From positions 248,001 to 312,000 of the forward strand of contig CAOLHI010000623.1 of assembly GCA_948474755.1 (NCBI GenBank): a stretch of 64,000 nucleotides of DNA, written 5' to 3'. A program made the translations under genes and the position numbers. Position 1 is the first letter of the stretch. Each line of letters opens with the position of its first letter. The notes under the pieces are model-generated. The model had not been told where the DNA came from. It searched no databases and saw nothing but the letters and a program-made list of their open reading frames with translations. Shown one piece after another: positions 6,188 through 54,125 of the stretch. Source of the stretch: Ctenosaura bakeri (taxonomy: Eukaryota > Chordata > Lepidosauria > Squamata > Iguanidae).

Positions 6188-6775
6188 GTTATTGATAATT
6201 GCCATCAAATCAGTTTTGTCTTAGGGCAACCCTAGGAATAAAAGATTTCCAAGACACTTTGCGATTTAACAGCTCTGCTCAGGTCTTGCAAATTCAGGAC
6301 TGTGCTACTTTGACTGACTCTATCTACCTGTAATGCAGTCTTCCTCTTTTCTTAATGCCTGTCTCTTTACCAAGCATTATTGTTTTTTTCTAATAACTCA
6401 CGTTGGCTCATGGTATGTCCAATTATGATAGCCTTAGTTTAGTCATTTTAGCTCCAAGGGAAAATTCAGGCTTGGTTTGTTCTCAGACCCATTCATTTAT
6501 CTTTCTAGTAATCCACGCTATTTATCTTTAGAACTTTCCTCTGGCATCACATTTCAAATGAGTTGATTCTCTTCCTTTCAGCTTTTTCATTGTCTAGTTT
6601 TCATGTACATAGAATTATAGCACAGACAGTCCTGACTGTGGTATTAAATAATATGACTTTTCACTTGAGGATCTTATCTAATTGCTTCATAGCTTCCCGT
6701 TCAAGTCCTAGTCTTCTGATTTCTCGACTACAATCTCCACTTGGATTCATGAGTGAGCTAAGATAGAGAAAATAT
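6188..6775 (-). mobile_element. Bov-B (RTE) LINE fragment
   Basis: The segment carries the antisense Bov-B phrases well known from squamates, such as TTTCAAATGAGTTGATTCTC, GGATCTTATCTAATTGCTTC and TTTCTCGACTACAATCTCC. The RT coding strand is therefore -. It is heavily decayed and truncated at both ends. A second copy of the same part of the element is at 53424-54125. Confidence 0.8.
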
Positions 6776-19389: not shown

Positions 19390-19555
19390 GGCCATTTCCG
19401 CACAAGACTGTTATAGCGCTATGATTCCAGTTTGAACATCCTATGGAATCCTGGTTGCAGTTTTGGGGGCTCCTCCTGAAACTGCAAACCCCAGGATTCC
19501 ATAGGATGTTGAAAGTGGAATCATAGCACTATAACAGTCTCATGCGGAAATGGCC
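19390..19555. mobile_element. FB3 foldback element inside an inverted SINE
   Basis: Perfect TTT target duplication. It splits a - strand SINE whose halves are about 19345-19389 and 19556-19640 (CTCTGAGGCTGAGACAATAT on the right). The right arm and left arm share GAGACTG/AAGACTG next to GCAC/GCAT. Confidence 0.9.
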
Positions 19556-21067
19556 TTTTCCTTCCTCTGAGGCTGAGACAATATGAATTGCCCAAGATCA
19601 CCCAGTGTCTGAGTGGGGATTTGAATGCTAATCTCCAGAAGCCTTAAATAAATAGATAGATAGATAAATACATATGTGAATATCTAGATCTAAATTTAAA
19701 TATTTAAATCTAAATTTCTATATTTCAATCTTGATTTAAGTCCTGGGGTCCTCAGCAACAAATTAAATTTACAGTGGGTCCCCAAGTAAAGAAAAGGTTA
19801 AGAACTACTGTTCTCCATGATTCTTTGTTGTTTTGGTTCAGCTATCAGCTGGGCTTATTTGAATTCTTCTTTCGACTCTTCTCTCATTTCCCTGGCGAGA
19901 TATGAGTTTCTATTGTCCATAAAAGTCTGGAATATGTATACAGTATTCTCAAATTCCTCAGTGCTTTGTCATTTTGTAAAGCTTGCCCCCATTCCTGAAC
20001 AGCTTTGATACATCCTGTAGTCAGAGAGCACTGGCTGGGACTCTAGTACAGTAATTGCCCATTAAAGGCATTTCATCTTTTGTAGACCGTCTCTGGCTGC
20101 CACAGTCAGCTGCAGGAGGCCACAGATTCTGCTTAATCTTTTGTCAGCTTTTGGAATTTTAATTGCCACTTACCAATTCTGTCCCTACTGCTAGCAGAAC
20201 CTGTTGTTCTGAATGTTCAGGTGGAGTCCTGGGAGGACAATAGGTCCAGTCAATAAACAAAGATGCAATGAACACAAGCATGTTAACACCACTCAACACC
20301 TCTTAGGAGCTCACTAATTGGGAGGAGCAGTATGCTGAAAGACTGATTGCGGTGCTAACTTGACCTGTGACCCCAAGTGTCACTGTCACCCATTGCCTTC
20401 CAGAGTGTGCAAGCCCCACATGAGGTGTTGCAGTTTGTAGTCCAGGAAACTGAATGAACCACAGGTGTCCTAGTGAGTGAAGTTTATGACAAGGGAGGGG
20501 TCAGGACCAGATACAACTGATAACCCTGCAAGAATGTAGTCACTAAATTTAGCTAGTTGGATGTCAAACCATTAGTCTCAAATCCTATTTAAAAACATCT
20601 ACGTGGCACAAGCATGATAAAAATGCAGAGCAATGGATCCCCTTTGTTAGTTAAAATGTGTCTAGTTGTTTACAGGCACTAAATAAATGCATGAGGGAGG
20701 TATGTGAAAGCGACACAAGGAATATTTTTCAAAGAATCATTTGTAAGAAATATTTTAGAGGTGGACCAAATGTTACAACCAGAACTAGAATCTCTTAAGA
20801 GGAGCAGACCTAAGAAGCTAACCATGTCCGCATCTTCTGAGGATCCTTCTCTCCCCTACGCAGGACTTTACCCCCCCCCACCTCCATGTTTTCTTTGTTT
20901 CTCCTTTGTGTGATTGCCAACTAGTCTAGGTTAATTTTACTGAAGAAATGGGAAACAGAAACAGTTGAACAATAGATGCCAAAGTTTGGACTGGGCTGAG
21001 ATCCAATACACAGCTGTTAACTGACCTGCCACAAGTATTCAGCATCCTCATTATCAGCAGCCACTGA

Positions 21068-21229
21068 GGCCATTTCTGCACTACACTCTCATAGTGCTAT
21101 TATTCCACTTTCAACATGCTAGGGAACCCTAGGGTTTTCAGGTTAGGGAGGGGTCTCAAAGGCCCCAGGATTCCCTAGGATGTTGAAAGTGGAATAATAG
21201 CACTATAAGAGTATAGTGTGGAAATGGTC
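21068..21229. mobile_element. FB3 foldback element
   Basis: GGCCATTTCTGCACTACACT ... AGTGTGGAAATGGTC with TGA on both sides. Both arms carry CTCTxATAG or ATAAGAG in place of the usual CTGTTATAG, another paired variant. Confidence 0.9.
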
Positions 21230-21307
21230 TGAGTCCTACACTCTTTGCCCTTCTTCTCTCTGCCTATCCAAGCTTCAGACCTAGGAAAATTCTCTCACAG
21301 AACCTAC

Positions 21308-25083: not shown

Positions 25084-27050
25084 TCAACCATGAGTCTTCA
25101 GGGTATTTGTTTTTGTAGATTCCTAGACAAATTTCAGAGAAGGAAGGTGACATGGTAACCTATGCTATTCCTGCAATTCCAGGAAATCACTCACTTGAAA
25201 GTTAGAACATCATACGCAGACATGGGAGGTACACTAACAGCATGAGAAGGTGGGTAGGACCAGGCAGAGCCAGATGAAGGCACCACAAACAATGTAAATT
25301 AAAAACCACACCAAGTAATATATGGATGCAGATTCATCCTTCATCTCTGACACTGACTCAGTAGAAGGGCCTTGGGTGGGTCCCTTAATCTTTGCCTCCA
25401 CATTTAGAACACAAAGAGTAATAATACCATTCTCTTTAAAAAAATGTGCTGAAGCATGGGGAAAAATATGTTTTGCAATGGCAAAGCATTAATCATAATG
25501 TAGGCTTCTTTTTCTTCCTGATTGTGAAGGTTCCTTTAACAACTATTCTTCTGTTGGATTACTTCATTACAATACCAATAATCTCTACTGCATATTGTGA
25601 AATTGAAAGCAAAAACAATTAAGAGTTCCATGGCATTTTAAATGCTAATAAATGTAGGCTTTAGTTTAATACCTGCTTAACTATGAGTAAGCCCAACGGA
25701 ACTCAGCTGACTTACTTTCGTGGCAATATGTATAGAGTTAAGCTGTTAGCATACCAGGGGAAAAAAGCAGATTTTCCATAGAGAATAATACAGCTCTAAT
25801 CCAACCACACTGGATGATATATACTGAGAGAGAGAGAGATTTACTATGTGACTTTGTAATTCTAGCTTCCATAGCAAGCTCTTTTCCAAGTCCCAAAATA
25901 TTGTTGCCTCAGCACCTTTTTTCCTTGGCCACATCCTTCTTCATGCCAGTTGCTTCCTCCCCTTGCTTCTTTCTGCCAACATCATACAGCTCTCCTGTTC
26001 TGAGTCCTTGTGACATTTTATCACCACCACCTTTTTCTCCACAATTCTCTGACTCTCTTTTTTTCCCCCTTCCCTTGCCCACCAGCCTTTTTGCTCTGAT
26101 ATCTATTGTCTCTATCTTGTGTGATTCATGTTCTTGTTTCTCACTCCAAAGTTTCTTCTGTTATTTTGGGTCAGGTTTCTAGCCTTTGGGCTATCCCATG
26201 CAGCTTCTCCTATCACTAGAGTAAGGATTGGGTAATCCAAATTATCTGGGGTCTAAAGCATGTTTCCTATCAGGAAATTACACAGCATTTGAGGATTTTT
26301 ATTTTAGGAAAAAAGCAATGAAAAAGCGATGACAAAGCAAGAACAATGAAAAAAAGCAGTGACAAAGGTCTGTAAAGTTAGATGTGGTGTGGAGAAGGAG
26401 AAGAAAGGTTTTTTTAGTTTGTAGTTTATAATACCAGAACATGGTGAAACTGATTGATGGGAGACTTGAAGCAGACATAAGAAAATGGAGTTTATTGTGA
26501 AGCAATACCACTGCCACAGGATATTGCAAGGCACATTAGCTTAGGTCAGTGGTTCTCAACCTTCCTAATGCCACGACCCTTTAATACAGTTCCTCATGTT
26601 GTGGTGACCCCCAACCATAAAATTATTTTTGTTGCTACTTCATAACTGTAATTCTGCTACTGTTATGAGTCGTAATGTAAATATCTGATATGCAAAGACC
26701 AATCAGCATCCAGATTAAGTTCCCATGGTACAGATATATATATTTTTTTGCAGTAGTTGATGATTTTACAGTACATTTTACATTTACCCAGTAATTATAA
26801 TTCATGAAGTGTCTTTTTACCTCCAATACTGCTGCTTTCAACACAGTTGAAATTTTAGAGGCTGTGGCCAAGTGAAAATGACTCCTACCATTCAAACTTT
26901 CTAGTGAGGAGCGAGGCAGCCCACCCTCAGTCCCATGGCACTGGTTGAACCAACTGATTGTGCTACCTGTAGCCCATGACACATGTAGCGAAGTGGCCTC
27001 TCTCTGACCCACTGATGCTTCTACCCCAACATCCCAAAATACACAACACA

Positions 27051-27213
27051 GGCCATTTCTGCACTGGACTGTTATAGTGCTATTATTTCACTTTCAACAT
27101 CCTATGGAATCCTGGGGTTTGCAGAGGCCCTTCACTAAACTGCAAACCCCAGGATTCCATAGGATGTTGAAAGTGGAATAGCAGTACTATAACAATCCAG
27201 TGCGAAAATGGCT
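27051..27213. mobile_element. FB3 foldback element nested in the SPIN cargo
   Basis: Perfect ACA target duplication. GCACTGGACTG is mirrored by CAATCCAGTGC. It lies in the captured, presumably intronic part, so it is younger than the capture, or was carried along if it was already in the donor gene. Confidence 0.9.
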
Positions 27214-27362
27214 ACAGTCGCACACATCCCTCTGGAAAACGCTCAATCCTCTTCCTACATGCATCTTTTCACCGAGGGAAAAAAAAATCAGAGGAATCCA
27301 ACCTAAAAATCTCCCCACTCTTCAATTCATTGGAGCGGACACACTACAGACAATAAGCTGAT

Positions 27363-27450
27363 GGCTTCAGGCTGCAATCCTATGCACGCTGCCCAGCAAG
27401 GAAGCCTCCCTGGAGACTTACTGCTGAGTAAACATGCTTAGGACTGGGCT
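27363..27450. repeat. Squamate interspersed repeat fragment in the SPIN cargo
   Basis: GGCTGCAATCCTATGCACGC, TACTGCTGAGTAAACATGCT and TAGGACTGGGCTGT follow the common squamate motif also seen in pieces near 25680, 35370, 41400-41475 and 43090. Family not named. It sits in what would be HNRNPLL intron 1. Confidence 0.5.
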
Positions 27451-27563
27451 GTGAGGCGGGTGGGCGCAGGTGCGCTCGCCACCATCCCTCCTCGTTCCCA
27501 GTCCGTTTCGTGAGGGAAAGGGCTCCCAAGGCTGACCGCACAGGACCCACTCTCCTCTCTTAC

Positions 27564-27743
27564 CTCTCCGTTGAAAGCGCCACTGCGAGAGGTGGCCTTC
27601 TCCCTGCAACTCTCTCCCTCCTCAGCCTCATACTCGATCTCCCCCTCCTCCGTGACGGCACTGGGCTTCAGCCGCTTGGCCTGGCTCTCATACGCGCCAT
27701 CCTCCTCTTCCTCGTACTGCTCCCCAGACGACAGGGAGGACAT
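27564..27743 (-). pseudogene. HNRNPLL: Captured HNRNPLL first coding exon (intact 60-codon exon, no other exons)
   Basis: HNRNPLL is an RNA-binding splicing regulator with several RRM domains; this exon encodes only the acidic N-terminal leader. From the ATG at 27743 the - strand reads MSSLSSGEQY, then YESQAKRLK, EEGEIEYEAEEGE and REKATSR. These match the vertebrate HNRNPLL N-terminus in order and spacing (MSSSSS..., YESQAKRLK, EEGEIDY, AEEGE, RREAT). It is open for exactly 60 codons and ends at a consensus donor (GAGAG then GTAAGA, boundary at 27564), phase 0. The start was chosen by homology; the frame also stays open upstream to an ATG at 27809. No RRM exon lies nearby and both sides are bounded by SPIN ends, so this is a transduplicated fragment, not the parental gene. 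Confidence 0.85.
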
Positions 27744-28220
27744 GGCGGCGGCTGGTTCACCAATGGGGTGCAGGTGGGCGGACGCTGGGGATTCACAACC
27801 GGCACGCAAACCCCCTGTGAGGAGATGAATAAATCAAGCAAACAGGCCCGTCAAAGATGTTCTCGGAGACCAGCGAAGACAAAACCGCAACTGCCCCCTT
27901 ACACACTTGTGTGCGGTGGGGTGGTAAGGGCCTTGCCCTGCAATTGGTCCAATTGCTAGGTTTGAATACCATGATTGGTTGAAGGGGGAGTTTCCCCCCA
28001 AGCGATGGGTCGTGCAATTTGAGTAAATCGACGTCCGTCATGTCCAAACAGCCCGTCCCTTTCTTGAAGGTTCTTTCCCTGCCCCATCGACTGGCGCCAG
28101 ATCCATTTACTCGAGGGAAAGAGGAGGAGGGAGGAGTGCAAAAGGAGTGTGAGCGGGCGCTGTTGCCAAGGGCAATGGACATAATGCCTCTGTGACTGAG
28201 CTGGAGACGGATAGAGGAGC
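27744..28220 (-). promoter_or_regulatory. Captured HNRNPLL promoter / 5' UTR region
   Basis: This is the sequence upstream of the captured ATG up to the right SPIN end. It is GC-rich and keeps many CpG dinucleotides (for example ATGGCGGCGGC at the start, AAATCGACGTCCGTC, GAGCGGGCGCTG), unlike the CpG-poor surroundings. On the - strand it has CCAAT boxes at 27974-27978 and 27943-27947, about 200-230 bp upstream of the ATG, plus an ATTGG at about 27760. No TATA box was seen. Whether it is active here is unknown. Confidence 0.55.
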
Positions 28221-31200
28221 AGTGTCTCGGTTCCTAAGACCATCGGAAATATGTGTTTTCTAATGGTCTTAGGCGACCCCCGTGAAAGGGTCATTCGACC
28301 CCCAAAGGGGTCGCAACCCACAGGTTGAGAACCGCTGGTGTAGAGGCTCCAGGTCTGGTTCTAATCAAACAGGAGAACTCGTAGAAGTCCTGCATTTCAT
28401 GACTGAAGAAGGGCAGGATACAAATCTTAGAAACAAAGGAAATGTGTGGGACAAAGGGCTCCCCAGAGCAGACTTTGAAAGCCACAGCTTTTTGAACACA
28501 TACAGTGAATGAGCATTTCACATTCCATTTGCTCAAGTAAGGAAAGTTAAGGAGCAACATAGGGCCTATAATAAAATTTTATAATGTGGGATGCCTCTGT
28601 TCAGAGTTCAAGGCAGCCAGTCATGCCCTCTTCTAAGATACTGTGTTGCACCCGCACTCTAAATTCCTCACCCAACAGTCAGTTGGCATTCTGTGGGTCT
28701 CTTCCCCACTTTTCACCCACTCTATTCCATTCTCCCTACCCCTTCACCAAATTGTCAGAGCTTTCGCCCACATAGTGACGCAACACTCAGGGACATTTTT
28801 GCATACTTAACATTGGAGTTACTCTCTGTGTGCTAATGCCTGCTCAGTTGTGCACACAATCTGACTTTTGCTCCTGTAGCAGCAAACATAAAGAGAAGGT
28901 GAACCGGTGTTGGAAGGAATCAAATTGTTGCTGGGAGGACCATGAATCCCTTTAGGCTGAGGCTGGAGAAAGCCAGAGCACTGGAGTGCTTGCAGTCCCG
29001 TGGCTGCTTGTTTTTTTCATGGCTGAATGGAGTTCTGTGACTGCTGTGTTTGGTTTCACTCTGAAAAGTATACACAGATAATGCTGGCAGGAACACTGTT
29101 TCGTCAGGGTAACAGGATGTGATAGGAATGTAAACAGGTTTCACTGACAATCTGGAAGGTTGCCAAGACAGAGTCCTGCTTTTCACCAGAAGTGAACTGT
29201 GGACAGCGAATGCTGTGGATGGCAAAGTAGTGCTGAGGTAGATGTTGCCTTTAAAGCAGCCACCTTGCAAATTGGGGAACCCAGGCATGGGTCTTGCTGA
29301 GTTTCAGCTGAAGCCTTAACAGTTAACACTCAGCACTCCCTTTAAGAGTGTTCAGAGTGCTTCCCATCCTCTTGGTCATCCTAACAACAGTCCCGTAAAG
29401 CAGGTCTAGTATAAAAATCCTATACTGCAAATGATGTTACAGGAGCAGGATTTCTGAAACTGGACTAGAGTTGCCTAAGGAAAAAAGTATTAGTGGATCT
29501 CCCAACATTTGTTTGTTTTTTAAAAAACTGTAAAGAAACTTTGATAAGGAGGGAAGCTCTGTCTTTTCACTGGAGCATCATTGCTGGGTGAGACATGTGA
29601 TTCCCTCAGTCAAAGCTTGGAAACATTAGTGTTTGCACTAACATGTTAATAACACATTGTTAAAGATGACCAGTAACAATTTAAGAAAGAAAGAGCACAA
29701 AAAACTGGTGAGCATCCAATGAAGTACATAGGAGGAAAAAAATTGCAACAAAAAGCCCAATATATTTCAGCTTGTAAATGCTCTTAAGGTCTTCTGTAGA
29801 GACACTGATCTTAACACAGATGAAAACTCCTAGAGATTGTTTTAGGTCAACACAAGAAACTGAACTTTTGATCTCCCAGATGCTGCTACTGAAACTGTCC
29901 TGGTGAGAGGCTGGACTTTAAAATTTACTCTTACCTCATTTTATACAATTGACTCTCACCCAACACTCCACTAGTTTCTGATGGATAAAAGAAGCCCTAC
30001 TGACTCAAAGGGAAGAGACAAAACCTGCTAACATTACAGGAGAAAGAGGTAACAAAAAGCATGTGAATAACAGCTGAAAGTTTTCTTCCTATGTTATAAG
30101 TAGTGTTAGCAGGTTTTCAAAATAGCAATAAGGGACAGTTGAAACTCACGACAATCAGGAAGTAGCCAATGAAAAGTTTGTGTTCTACCTAAACATCAAA
30201 TGAAAGTATTGATTTCAGTTAACTTCACATGTTTCTCTGTAAAATTAACGTGTGATACACCTTCAAAAGTTACATGATGTATACATTTCTGTCTGTATGA
30301 AGGGTCCACACCACAAAATACAGGGTTTTCTTTATTTTCTGGCACCAGTCTATATTAAAGGAGAAAACTTTCTAACTCTTAAATAAAAGACTTCCCTTAT
30401 AATAAGAGACACTTGGCAAACCTGCTTATAAGTAAATGGTAGAAAAAATAGAGATAACATTCAAGGGCATACAGCTTTATTTAGGCTAAAAGGAAAGGGA
30501 CTATATGAAAATTCAAGAAATTTTTACAGGAGTGGAAGATAGTTAAGCTCCGTGTTTAGACCTGAAGCTAAGTATTTTAAGATCCACTTCATCCCTTTTT
30601 TCAGCAGAACCCTCCCTTCACTAGAACTCGCCCTCTTTATTGCCTGAAATCTAAAGGCAATAGAATTGTGTTGTTCCAAGAAGTGGCTCACCAAGGGAGT
30701 ACCTGTTTTGTTGCTGTTTTGATATTACAGAAGTGTTCCTGCATAAGAGGCCTGGTTGTTTTCATCCCATACACCTTTTGACACTTGTACAGCACAACAT
30801 AAATAACAAAATCACTGCTACGGGTGGTGAAATGATGCAAAGTATGTCCTTTTGGTTCTCATAGTATAAGAATTCTGTTGTCTTAAGAGGCCTAATTTAT
30901 GTGAGATGTGTCTGTCCCTAACCCAACCCTAGTAAACAATTAAAGTAAAAAGAAAGTTGCTGCTCAAAAACATTGGCACTTAATGAGTAAATAACACATC
31001 TCATACCCACTGTCAGAATTTGTATTGAACTGAAGTAAATAATTAATCTTCTAACAGATTGTTTCCAAGGTCTATCCAGTACTCTCACCCAGCATGTTAC
31101 AAGCAAGTCTGAAGCATAGAGACTAGCCCTGTGGGAAGATGATAATTTTATTTGAGACCAGGGGACCAAGAGGGGTCTGGCTTGGGGCAGTTAAAAAAAA

Positions 31201-43380: not shown

Positions 43381-43971
43381 ACTGTGCTTCAGATAGTATA
43401 TTATCTGAGTGCTCTGTACTCCCCTCCACACCAAAATTTGCTCCTGTTCATACAGAATGGTAGCTGTAGGTCTAATTTAAGAATTGGCATGTCCTTCATG
43501 CCAGTTAAGCACTGGTAGTGAGCTTCTTTATGGAGTGGCAAATTCCATAAGGGCATACGTTTGTATAACAGTTGTTTTTCTCTGCACCAGTATGTGTGTG
43601 TATGCTAATCACTGAGGTTTGTTTTTCTGCTCGGCTGCTGAAATAATTGTTTAAATGAGAAGACTGATGTAGGTACAAAACAGTTTTTCAACCTAGAGTA
43701 TAATCTGAATCAGAGGCATACAGACACAGCAGTCTTGCAAATAATTCTTCATAAGGGCTTGCCTCTGCACTTTATTCAAAGCTTTGAAGATGACTTTTGT
43801 CCCTGCTGTATGGAGAACTCTGGATGTTATGATCCAAAAATGTAACTTCTCCAATTTCTGATTCTGTTTGCATTATTCTCTTACTGCCCCCCACCTGCAA
43901 CTTGTGGTTTAATTCTTTCATTGGGTCTATACTGGAGCTTTGAATCTGTGGCTGGCAGCCCGCTAGACATA

Positions 43972-44130
43972 GACCATTTCCCCACGAGACTGTTATAGCG
44001 CAATGATTCCACTTTCAACATCCTATAGGATCCTGGAGTTTGCAGGATTGTGCAAACTGCAAACTCCAGGATTCCATAGGATGTTGAAAGTGGAATAATC
44101 GCCTTATAAGAGCGTAGTGCGGAAATGGCA
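43972..44130. mobile_element. FB3 foldback element
   Basis: GACCATTTCCCCACGAGACT ... GTGCGGAAATGGCA. The flanks ATA / ATC agree at two of three. Almost perfect central palindrome around TTGCAGGATTGTGCAA. Both arms read TGGAGTTTGC, a shared variant of TGGGGTTTGC. Confidence 0.9.
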
Positions 44131-53423: not shown

Positions 53424-54125
53424 CTCACCTCTTTGGAACTCAAGGTCATGGCTTCCTTGATTGAATCAATCAAGAAATCACCTTCTTTTTCCTACTTCCT
53501 TCTGCTTTACTGAGCTTTATAATCTTTTCTGATGAGTCGCATCATTTCTTGGTATGTCCAAAGTATGGCAGCTTCAGTTTAGTCATCTTCATTTCTGGTG
53601 ACAGAGTTAGGTTTGATTTGCTCATTTGTCTTTTGAGCAGTCAATGTTATCAGTAGAACTGTCCTCTAGCACCACATTTCAAACAAGTTGATTTTCTTCT
53701 TGTGGGCTATCTTCATTGTCCAATGTTTACAACCATATGTAGAAATTGGAAATATGATGATGTGGACAATCTTGACTTTGGTATTTAATAGTACATCTTT
53801 ATATTTGAGAATCTTATCTAATTCCTTCTTGGCTTCCTTTCCAAGTCTTAGTTTTCTTTTGATTTCTTGACTACAGTCTCCATTTTATTAATGTTTGAGC
53901 CAAGGTATAGAAAATCTTTAACCATTGCAGTGTCTTTGTTATCCATTTTAAAGTTATGTAAATTATCTGTTGTCGTTTTTGTGGTCTTAATATTCAGCTG
54001 TACCCCTGGTTTTGCACTTACTCTTACCTTTCACCAGTAGTTCTTCCAGGTCTTTGCTGTTTTCTGCCAGTACCAAAGCACATATTCCCTGCAAGCCATG
54101 TTTAGGAACAGGTCTGTGATTCTGG
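53424..54125 (-). mobile_element. Bov-B (RTE) LINE fragment
   Basis: Antisense Bov-B: ACAACCATATGTAGAAATTG, AATCTTGACTTTGGTATTTA, GATTTCTTGACTACAGTCTC, GAGCCAAGGTATAGAAAATC, AATATTCAGCTGTACCCCTG. It covers the same RT region as 6188-6775 and is better preserved, but has many stops. Confidence 0.85.

Follow-up and report, generated by a model that had tools for sequence, protein, structure and literature searches.

The question raised by this locus is how the first coding exon of HNRNPLL came to lie between two transposon ends in a 64,000-nt stretch of Ctenosaura bakeri DNA (contig C623, positions 248001–312000; this whole stretch is called the window below). The element concerned occupies positions 26547–28337 of the window, numbered here as element 1–1791. 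It is very probably a SPIN-like hAT transposon of the non-autonomous type. A genomic copy of the HNRNPLL 5′ end lies inside it, the whole has transposed and been amplified together, and it likely arose by template switching within a short SPIN element. The ends are presumed, here as in the earlier note on this DNA, to be those of SPIN.

The element is bounded by 16-nt terminal inverted repeats that are 94% complementary (26547–26562 and 28322–28337). Its left SPIN-like end (26547–26694, plus strand; element 1–148) is recognized by the inverted repeat and by copies elsewhere, and some places in the genome, such as those on contigs C210 and C127 at 98%, match this segment only. Next come a 159-bp stretch (26695–26853, plus strand; element 149–307) with a source in neither the transposon ends nor the fetched parental locus, and a captured piece of HNRNPLL intron 1 from downstream of exon 1 (26854–27563, minus strand), within which lies an older hairpin repeat (27052–27212, unstranded). 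The coding part of exon 1 follows at 27564–27743 on the minus strand; its 60 codons, MSSLSSGEQYEEEEDGAYESQAKRLK...EEGEIEYEAEEGE, end at a GT splice donor. Beyond it are the 5′ untranslated region and the CpG-island upstream region, the likely promoter (27744–28203, minus strand), and then the other SPIN-like end (28204–28337, plus strand; element 1658–1791), which is delimited by the inverted repeat and the end of the parental match. The unstranded 8-bp flanks are GCTTAGGT at 26539–26546, with TA at places 4–5 as in the target-site duplications of most other copies, and GTGTAGAG at 28338–28345.

When the genome was searched with the hnRNP-L/PTB family model, seven exons were matched, every one of them on the minus strand of contig C1322. 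With human HNRNPLL as the query, exon 1 was placed at C1322:154742–154900 (64% identity, E 7e-10), exon 2 at about C1322:150058–150195 (89%), and later exons at 68–100% per stretch, the low values extending into intron; the further exons matched span about 150195 down to 138835 on the minus strand. Within the parental locus (L029), element 308–872 corresponds to L029:1339–1902 at 92% and element 871–1657 to L029:2084–2883 at 82%; the cargo, captured as DNA, thus comprises the beginning of intron 1, exon 1, and the CpG island upstream of it. By itself, the similarity of the exon to human HNRNPLL is weak (61% over 59 columns, E 0.80), and the identification rests on the match to the host genome’s own HNRNPLL gene together with three unnamed proteins from a database (E 8e-19 to 2e-14). 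The cargo retains ∼0.7 kb of intron 1 plus the splice donor, on which ground a processed retrocopy was rejected. The hairpin repeat (element 504–667) lies at the same place in the parental intron, and another such insertion is found in the parent only, so that the capture dates between the two. A resident HNRNPLL gene at the window was likewise rejected, since the gene with RNA-recognition motif (RRM) exons is on C1322; in the window no convincing RRM exon was found, other matches to the human protein having E 1.9 or worse. The earlier note had proposed transposon ends enclosing foreign DNA, a minus-strand 60-codon exon ending in a donor, its identity as the HNRNPLL N-terminus, and a DNA-level capture from a parental locus elsewhere in the genome, and all of these were borne out; two of the readings it had set against its own, that the interior is merely that of a full SPIN element or that the exon belongs to an HNRNPLL gene at this place, are contradicted, as far as was checked, by the alignment of element 308–1657 to the gene on C1322.

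The whole genome (1.905 Gb, 8006 contigs) was searched with the element, yielding 90 matches; the best 40 of 7029 candidates were scored, so that counts are lower bounds. Near-full copies (1700 or more of the 1791 bp, 88–100% identical) number at least 12 with that of the window counted, and the other matches cover only parts of the element. Twenty places were fetched with 3 kb around the match, and flanks were compared in 15 of them and the window (n = 16), with L015, L020, L021, L022, and L025 excluded since one of their ends is absent or out of place. A perfect 8-bp target-site duplication was present in 11 of the 16 copies, and in a twelfth (L017) once its start was shifted by one base; L010 showed an imperfect one (7/8), as did L021 outside the count (GTTTAAGT/GTTTAAGC, 7/8). 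The duplications follow the nnnTAnnn pattern given as the rule for Buster-group hAT elements in PMC3517528, with TA at places 4–5 in 11 of the 12 perfect ones, and the average agreement of 3.9 of 8 places between flanks of different copies is accordingly read as target bias. For one of the 16 copies, L023, a paralogous empty site was identified: with its two flanks joined, five repeat copies (68–73% identity) continue across the insertion point without a break; for the other 15 of the 16 copies, none was found in the small amount of sequence compared. Shared junctions, perfect duplications in 12/16, and one empty site together show that the element moved as a unit, and the window copy is a member of this family whose own duplication is not recognizable. 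The mobile cassette of likely promoter and exon proposed earlier is supported, and, as further copies exist, the element did spread the HNRNPLL 5′ end through the genome. Two copies of the repeat that contains the L023 insertion site also lie in the window, at 53482–53754 and 6339–6603.

Beside the form seen in the window (form A), five copies read with both ends (L023, L024, L026, L027, and L028) represent a sister form B of ∼2.77 kb, in which element 1–1077 is followed by ∼1.5 kb of other GC-rich DNA and by the last 121 bp or nearly so; L026 bears an additional insertion. The right end common to both forms begins at about element 1671, and the majority sequences of the two forms agree at 99.0% over element 1–1077 and 98.3% over the last 121 bp. 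The form B break falls inside the HNRNPLL exon: the upstream region and most of the exon are replaced, and the last part of the exon and its donor are kept. Form A probably precedes form B, because the HNRNPLL sequence in A continues, like the parent, across the B break point. Read by eye on the plus strand, the replacement appears to hold a TATA-like box, an ATG, a GT donor, an AG acceptor, and a second donor, facing opposite to the HNRNPLL piece; its three predicted peptides had no Pfam match, and no homologue was found for the joined peptide. When the genome was searched with this replacement (best 40 of 216 candidates scored), at least 18 places, including L023, covered essentially all of it at 84–100%, eight of which also adjoin element 1–1077 or parts thereof. 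Matches at 67–82% were found in a tandem cluster on contig C4761 and in its kin on C7286 and C6546, the long matches in the C4761 cluster being 72–79% (one cluster copy read). This GC-rich cluster (L061), with units in both orientations, is the source family of the second captured piece. A shorter derivative occurs on contigs C991, C3428, C52, C2761, and C690, all lacking element 104–516 with the same break (1–103 joined to 517); four of the five places run into the second captured piece and that on C690 into form A sequence to 1122. Contigs C4607 and C5159 have a common rearrangement, with element 871–1791 and a 1–148 end ∼220–240 bp apart.

Several observations weigh against the account of a single captured unit spread by transposition. 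The flanks of the window copy agree at only four of eight places, those of L028 at two, so that neither shows a duplication, and those of L011 at six. The 159-bp stretch recurs in 19 of the 20 places fetched, in two pieces in L019 and partially in L020, whereas L025 begins later; it has no match within C1322:148501–157500 around parental exon 1. Since it derives from neither an end nor the fetched parent, either more than a simple pair of breaks was involved in the capture or the parent has changed. In a tree of element 1–1077, the inner branches are short, as after a burst, and four of the five form B copies group with one form A copy, L019 (support 0.97); the parent, rather than standing apart from the copies, falls beside the form B copy L028 (support 0.89), and thus the tree alone does not separate copies from parent, which the common junctions do. 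Lastly, the exon is free of stops and frameshifts in only nine of the 14 form A copies that were used for counts of divergence, substitutions, and exon integrity (the window and L009–L021; form B, L022, and L025 were left out).

Among the alternatives, the one that survives best, although it is improbable, is that the capture took place in another species, from which the transposon came with its cargo by horizontal transfer. SPIN is reported to have colonized many squamates (cited in PMC11008031), and over the shared left part the mean difference between the parent and the form A copies is 8.8%, against 7.3% for the copies among themselves; this excess over the inter-copy distance is small, however, the majority exon differs from that of the parent by seven substitutions, none of which alters the peptide, and by a 3-bp indel (the majority peptide has one glycine fewer than that of the parent), and the host intron repeat lies at the same place in cargo and parent. 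The 14 copies differ from their own majority sequence by 4.1–6.4% overall and 1.2–3.5% outside CpG-type sites, and the parental gene in the same genome differs from that majority by 6.2% (4.9% outside CpG-type sites); interspecies transfer is therefore not required. The window copy lost CpGs after insertion, as the majority sequence has 109 and the window copy 59; over roughly 27744–28203 the CpG observed/expected ratio is about 0.62 in the window copy, 0.94 in the majority, and 1.00 in the parent.

A second and still less likely alternative is that selection maintains the copies as functional HNRNPLL-like leader exons, for which the retention of the ATG in 14/14 copies and of the GT donor in 13/14 would speak. 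The exon changes in these copies, however, comprise 70 synonymous, 111 non-synonymous, 2 stop, and 1 unclassified, and the spectrum of changes outside the exon predicts 66.0, 109.7, and 2.5 for the first three classes under neutrality; a frameshift, stop, or truncation is present in the other five copies. Since the substitution classes match the neutral expectation, the exons are decaying neutrally, as a passenger and not a maintained protein. The unchanged majority peptide is not taken as a sign of selection, because few changes are expected before the burst. Selection is thus disfavored for the family, and a single copy may have been exapted.

It is scarcely credible that two independent SPIN insertions flank a displaced HNRNPLL exon and that nothing moved as a unit; the poor agreement of the window flanks, both of which fit the hAT target preference, would suit such a history, but the earlier note’s own concern on this point is answered by 11 other near-full copies with the same two junctions, by perfect duplications in 12/16, and by an empty site for 1/16, which refute it for the family. 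That the copies multiplied through segmental duplication, or as a rolling-circle Helitron that carried the hAT ends along, is just as hard to believe, even though a bat Helitron is known to have captured a promoter, first codons, and donor (PMC4778049), and the joined flanks of 6/16 copies match other sequence compared, because most copies are bounded by inverted repeats and by 8-bp duplications that differ between copies, the joined flanks of the other 10/16 are without match in the sequence compared, and the match of L023 is a repeat.

The preferred reading, a transposon that captured the HNRNPLL 5′ end and then multiplied, would involve the following steps. While a short SPIN element was being repaired or replicated, a template switch likely copied the HNRNPLL 5′ end, as in the FoSTeST model described for such captures in PMC8277862; a transposase from a full-length relative would have mobilized the product in trans, the copies would have arisen in a burst, and one descendant may have undergone a second template-switching event that replaced the HNRNPLL promoter region, giving form B. 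The multi-piece structure, with the 159 bp, the HNRNPLL piece, and later the second piece, would fit serial template switching. By eye, no long homology was seen at the junctions, which is not decisive as to the mode of origin. A fresh copy is predicted to present an outward-facing promoter, leader exon, and splice donor, directed toward the left end in form A, and chimeric transcripts might start in genes that receive one, by analogy with HelibatN3 in bats. A short SPIN-like element also lies in the parental locus (L029:3941–4222, flanks GGTTATGG/GGCTATGG), ∼1.07 kb upstream of the captured segment; it is not claimed as the donor, its orientation being inverted.

Among known systems, the element is a multicopy Pack-TIR of the hAT superfamily: transposon ends lie on both sides of the cargo, the cargo is duplicated from host sequence elsewhere for the HNRNPLL and second pieces, though not for the 159-bp stretch, and copies with their own duplications occupy different loci (12/16, with the window copy at 4/8). 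A Helitron of the HelibatN3 type was rejected because the element has target-site duplications and terminal inverted repeats, and Helitrons are not known to have either. Ordinary SPIN copies contain a transposase or a short non-coding interior; the presumed SPIN end sequences and the 8-bp duplication are shared with tetrapod SPIN elements (hAT), whereas a host gene piece lies inside here. In the open-licence literature, as covered by titles and abstract openings, no publication on SPIN with host gene cargo was found.

According to Tan et al. 2021 (PMC8277862), only four multicopy Pack-TIR cases were present in 100 animal reference genomes, one being hAT-N8_XT of the western clawed frog, which carries 291 bp of the CAPSL 5′ untranslated region on three chromosomes. 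The present family shares with the animal cases described there hAT ends, a host-gene piece copied from elsewhere, recurrent transposition with distinct target-site duplications, and GC-rich cargo; it differs in its copy number (no fewer than 12 near-full copies of form A and 18 near-complete interiors of form B), in a cargo of ∼1.5–2.5 kb that unites upstream region, exon, and donor, and in the second capture. With plant Pack-MULEs, as described in PMC8277862, it shares host gene pieces in a cut-and-paste element, in another superfamily and kingdom. HelibatN3 in bats is a parallel in that a captured promoter, coding start, and splice donor were spread through a vertebrate genome; chimeric transcripts arise from its captured NUBPL promoter and donor both in cells and in bats, and the promoters of 15 genes have reached 4,690 copies through bat Helitrons (PMC4778049). 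That element is a rolling-circle Helitron with six captured codons and demonstrated activity, whereas the present one holds 60 and its activity is a prediction.

The family has ∼30 scored copies of two forms that can be dated, its parent lies in the same genome, and two captures followed one another in it. Two questions thereby become testable in a vertebrate: how elements with terminal inverted repeats acquire host DNA, and whether promoters that have been moved give rise to new transcripts in elements other than Helitrons. In plants, capture of genes by cut-and-paste elements is a familiar finding; what is new here is the sister form B, with a second host piece in place of the HNRNPLL promoter region. 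A bolder and distinctly tentative reading, rather unlikely on present evidence, is of a serial promoter shuttle, in which a CpG-island promoter, exon, and donor would have been captured and multiplied, then swapped for a second, opposite-facing host promoter and multiplied again, with unmethylated cargo aiding activity and rewiring genes.

Elsewhere in the window, scans for tRNAs and for Rfam families (gathering thresholds) gave no match. A sulfhydryl oxidase of the QSOX type has its first coding exon from about 34494 on the plus strand, ∼6.2 kb to the right of the element, with the thioredoxin motif WCGHC; its best solved relative is human QSOX1 (8e-22). The hairpin repeat at 27052–27212 has kin in a family of miniature inverted-repeat transposable elements with many copies in the window (for example, 19390–19556, 21060–21234, and 43967–44129), some of the matches being longer or broken.

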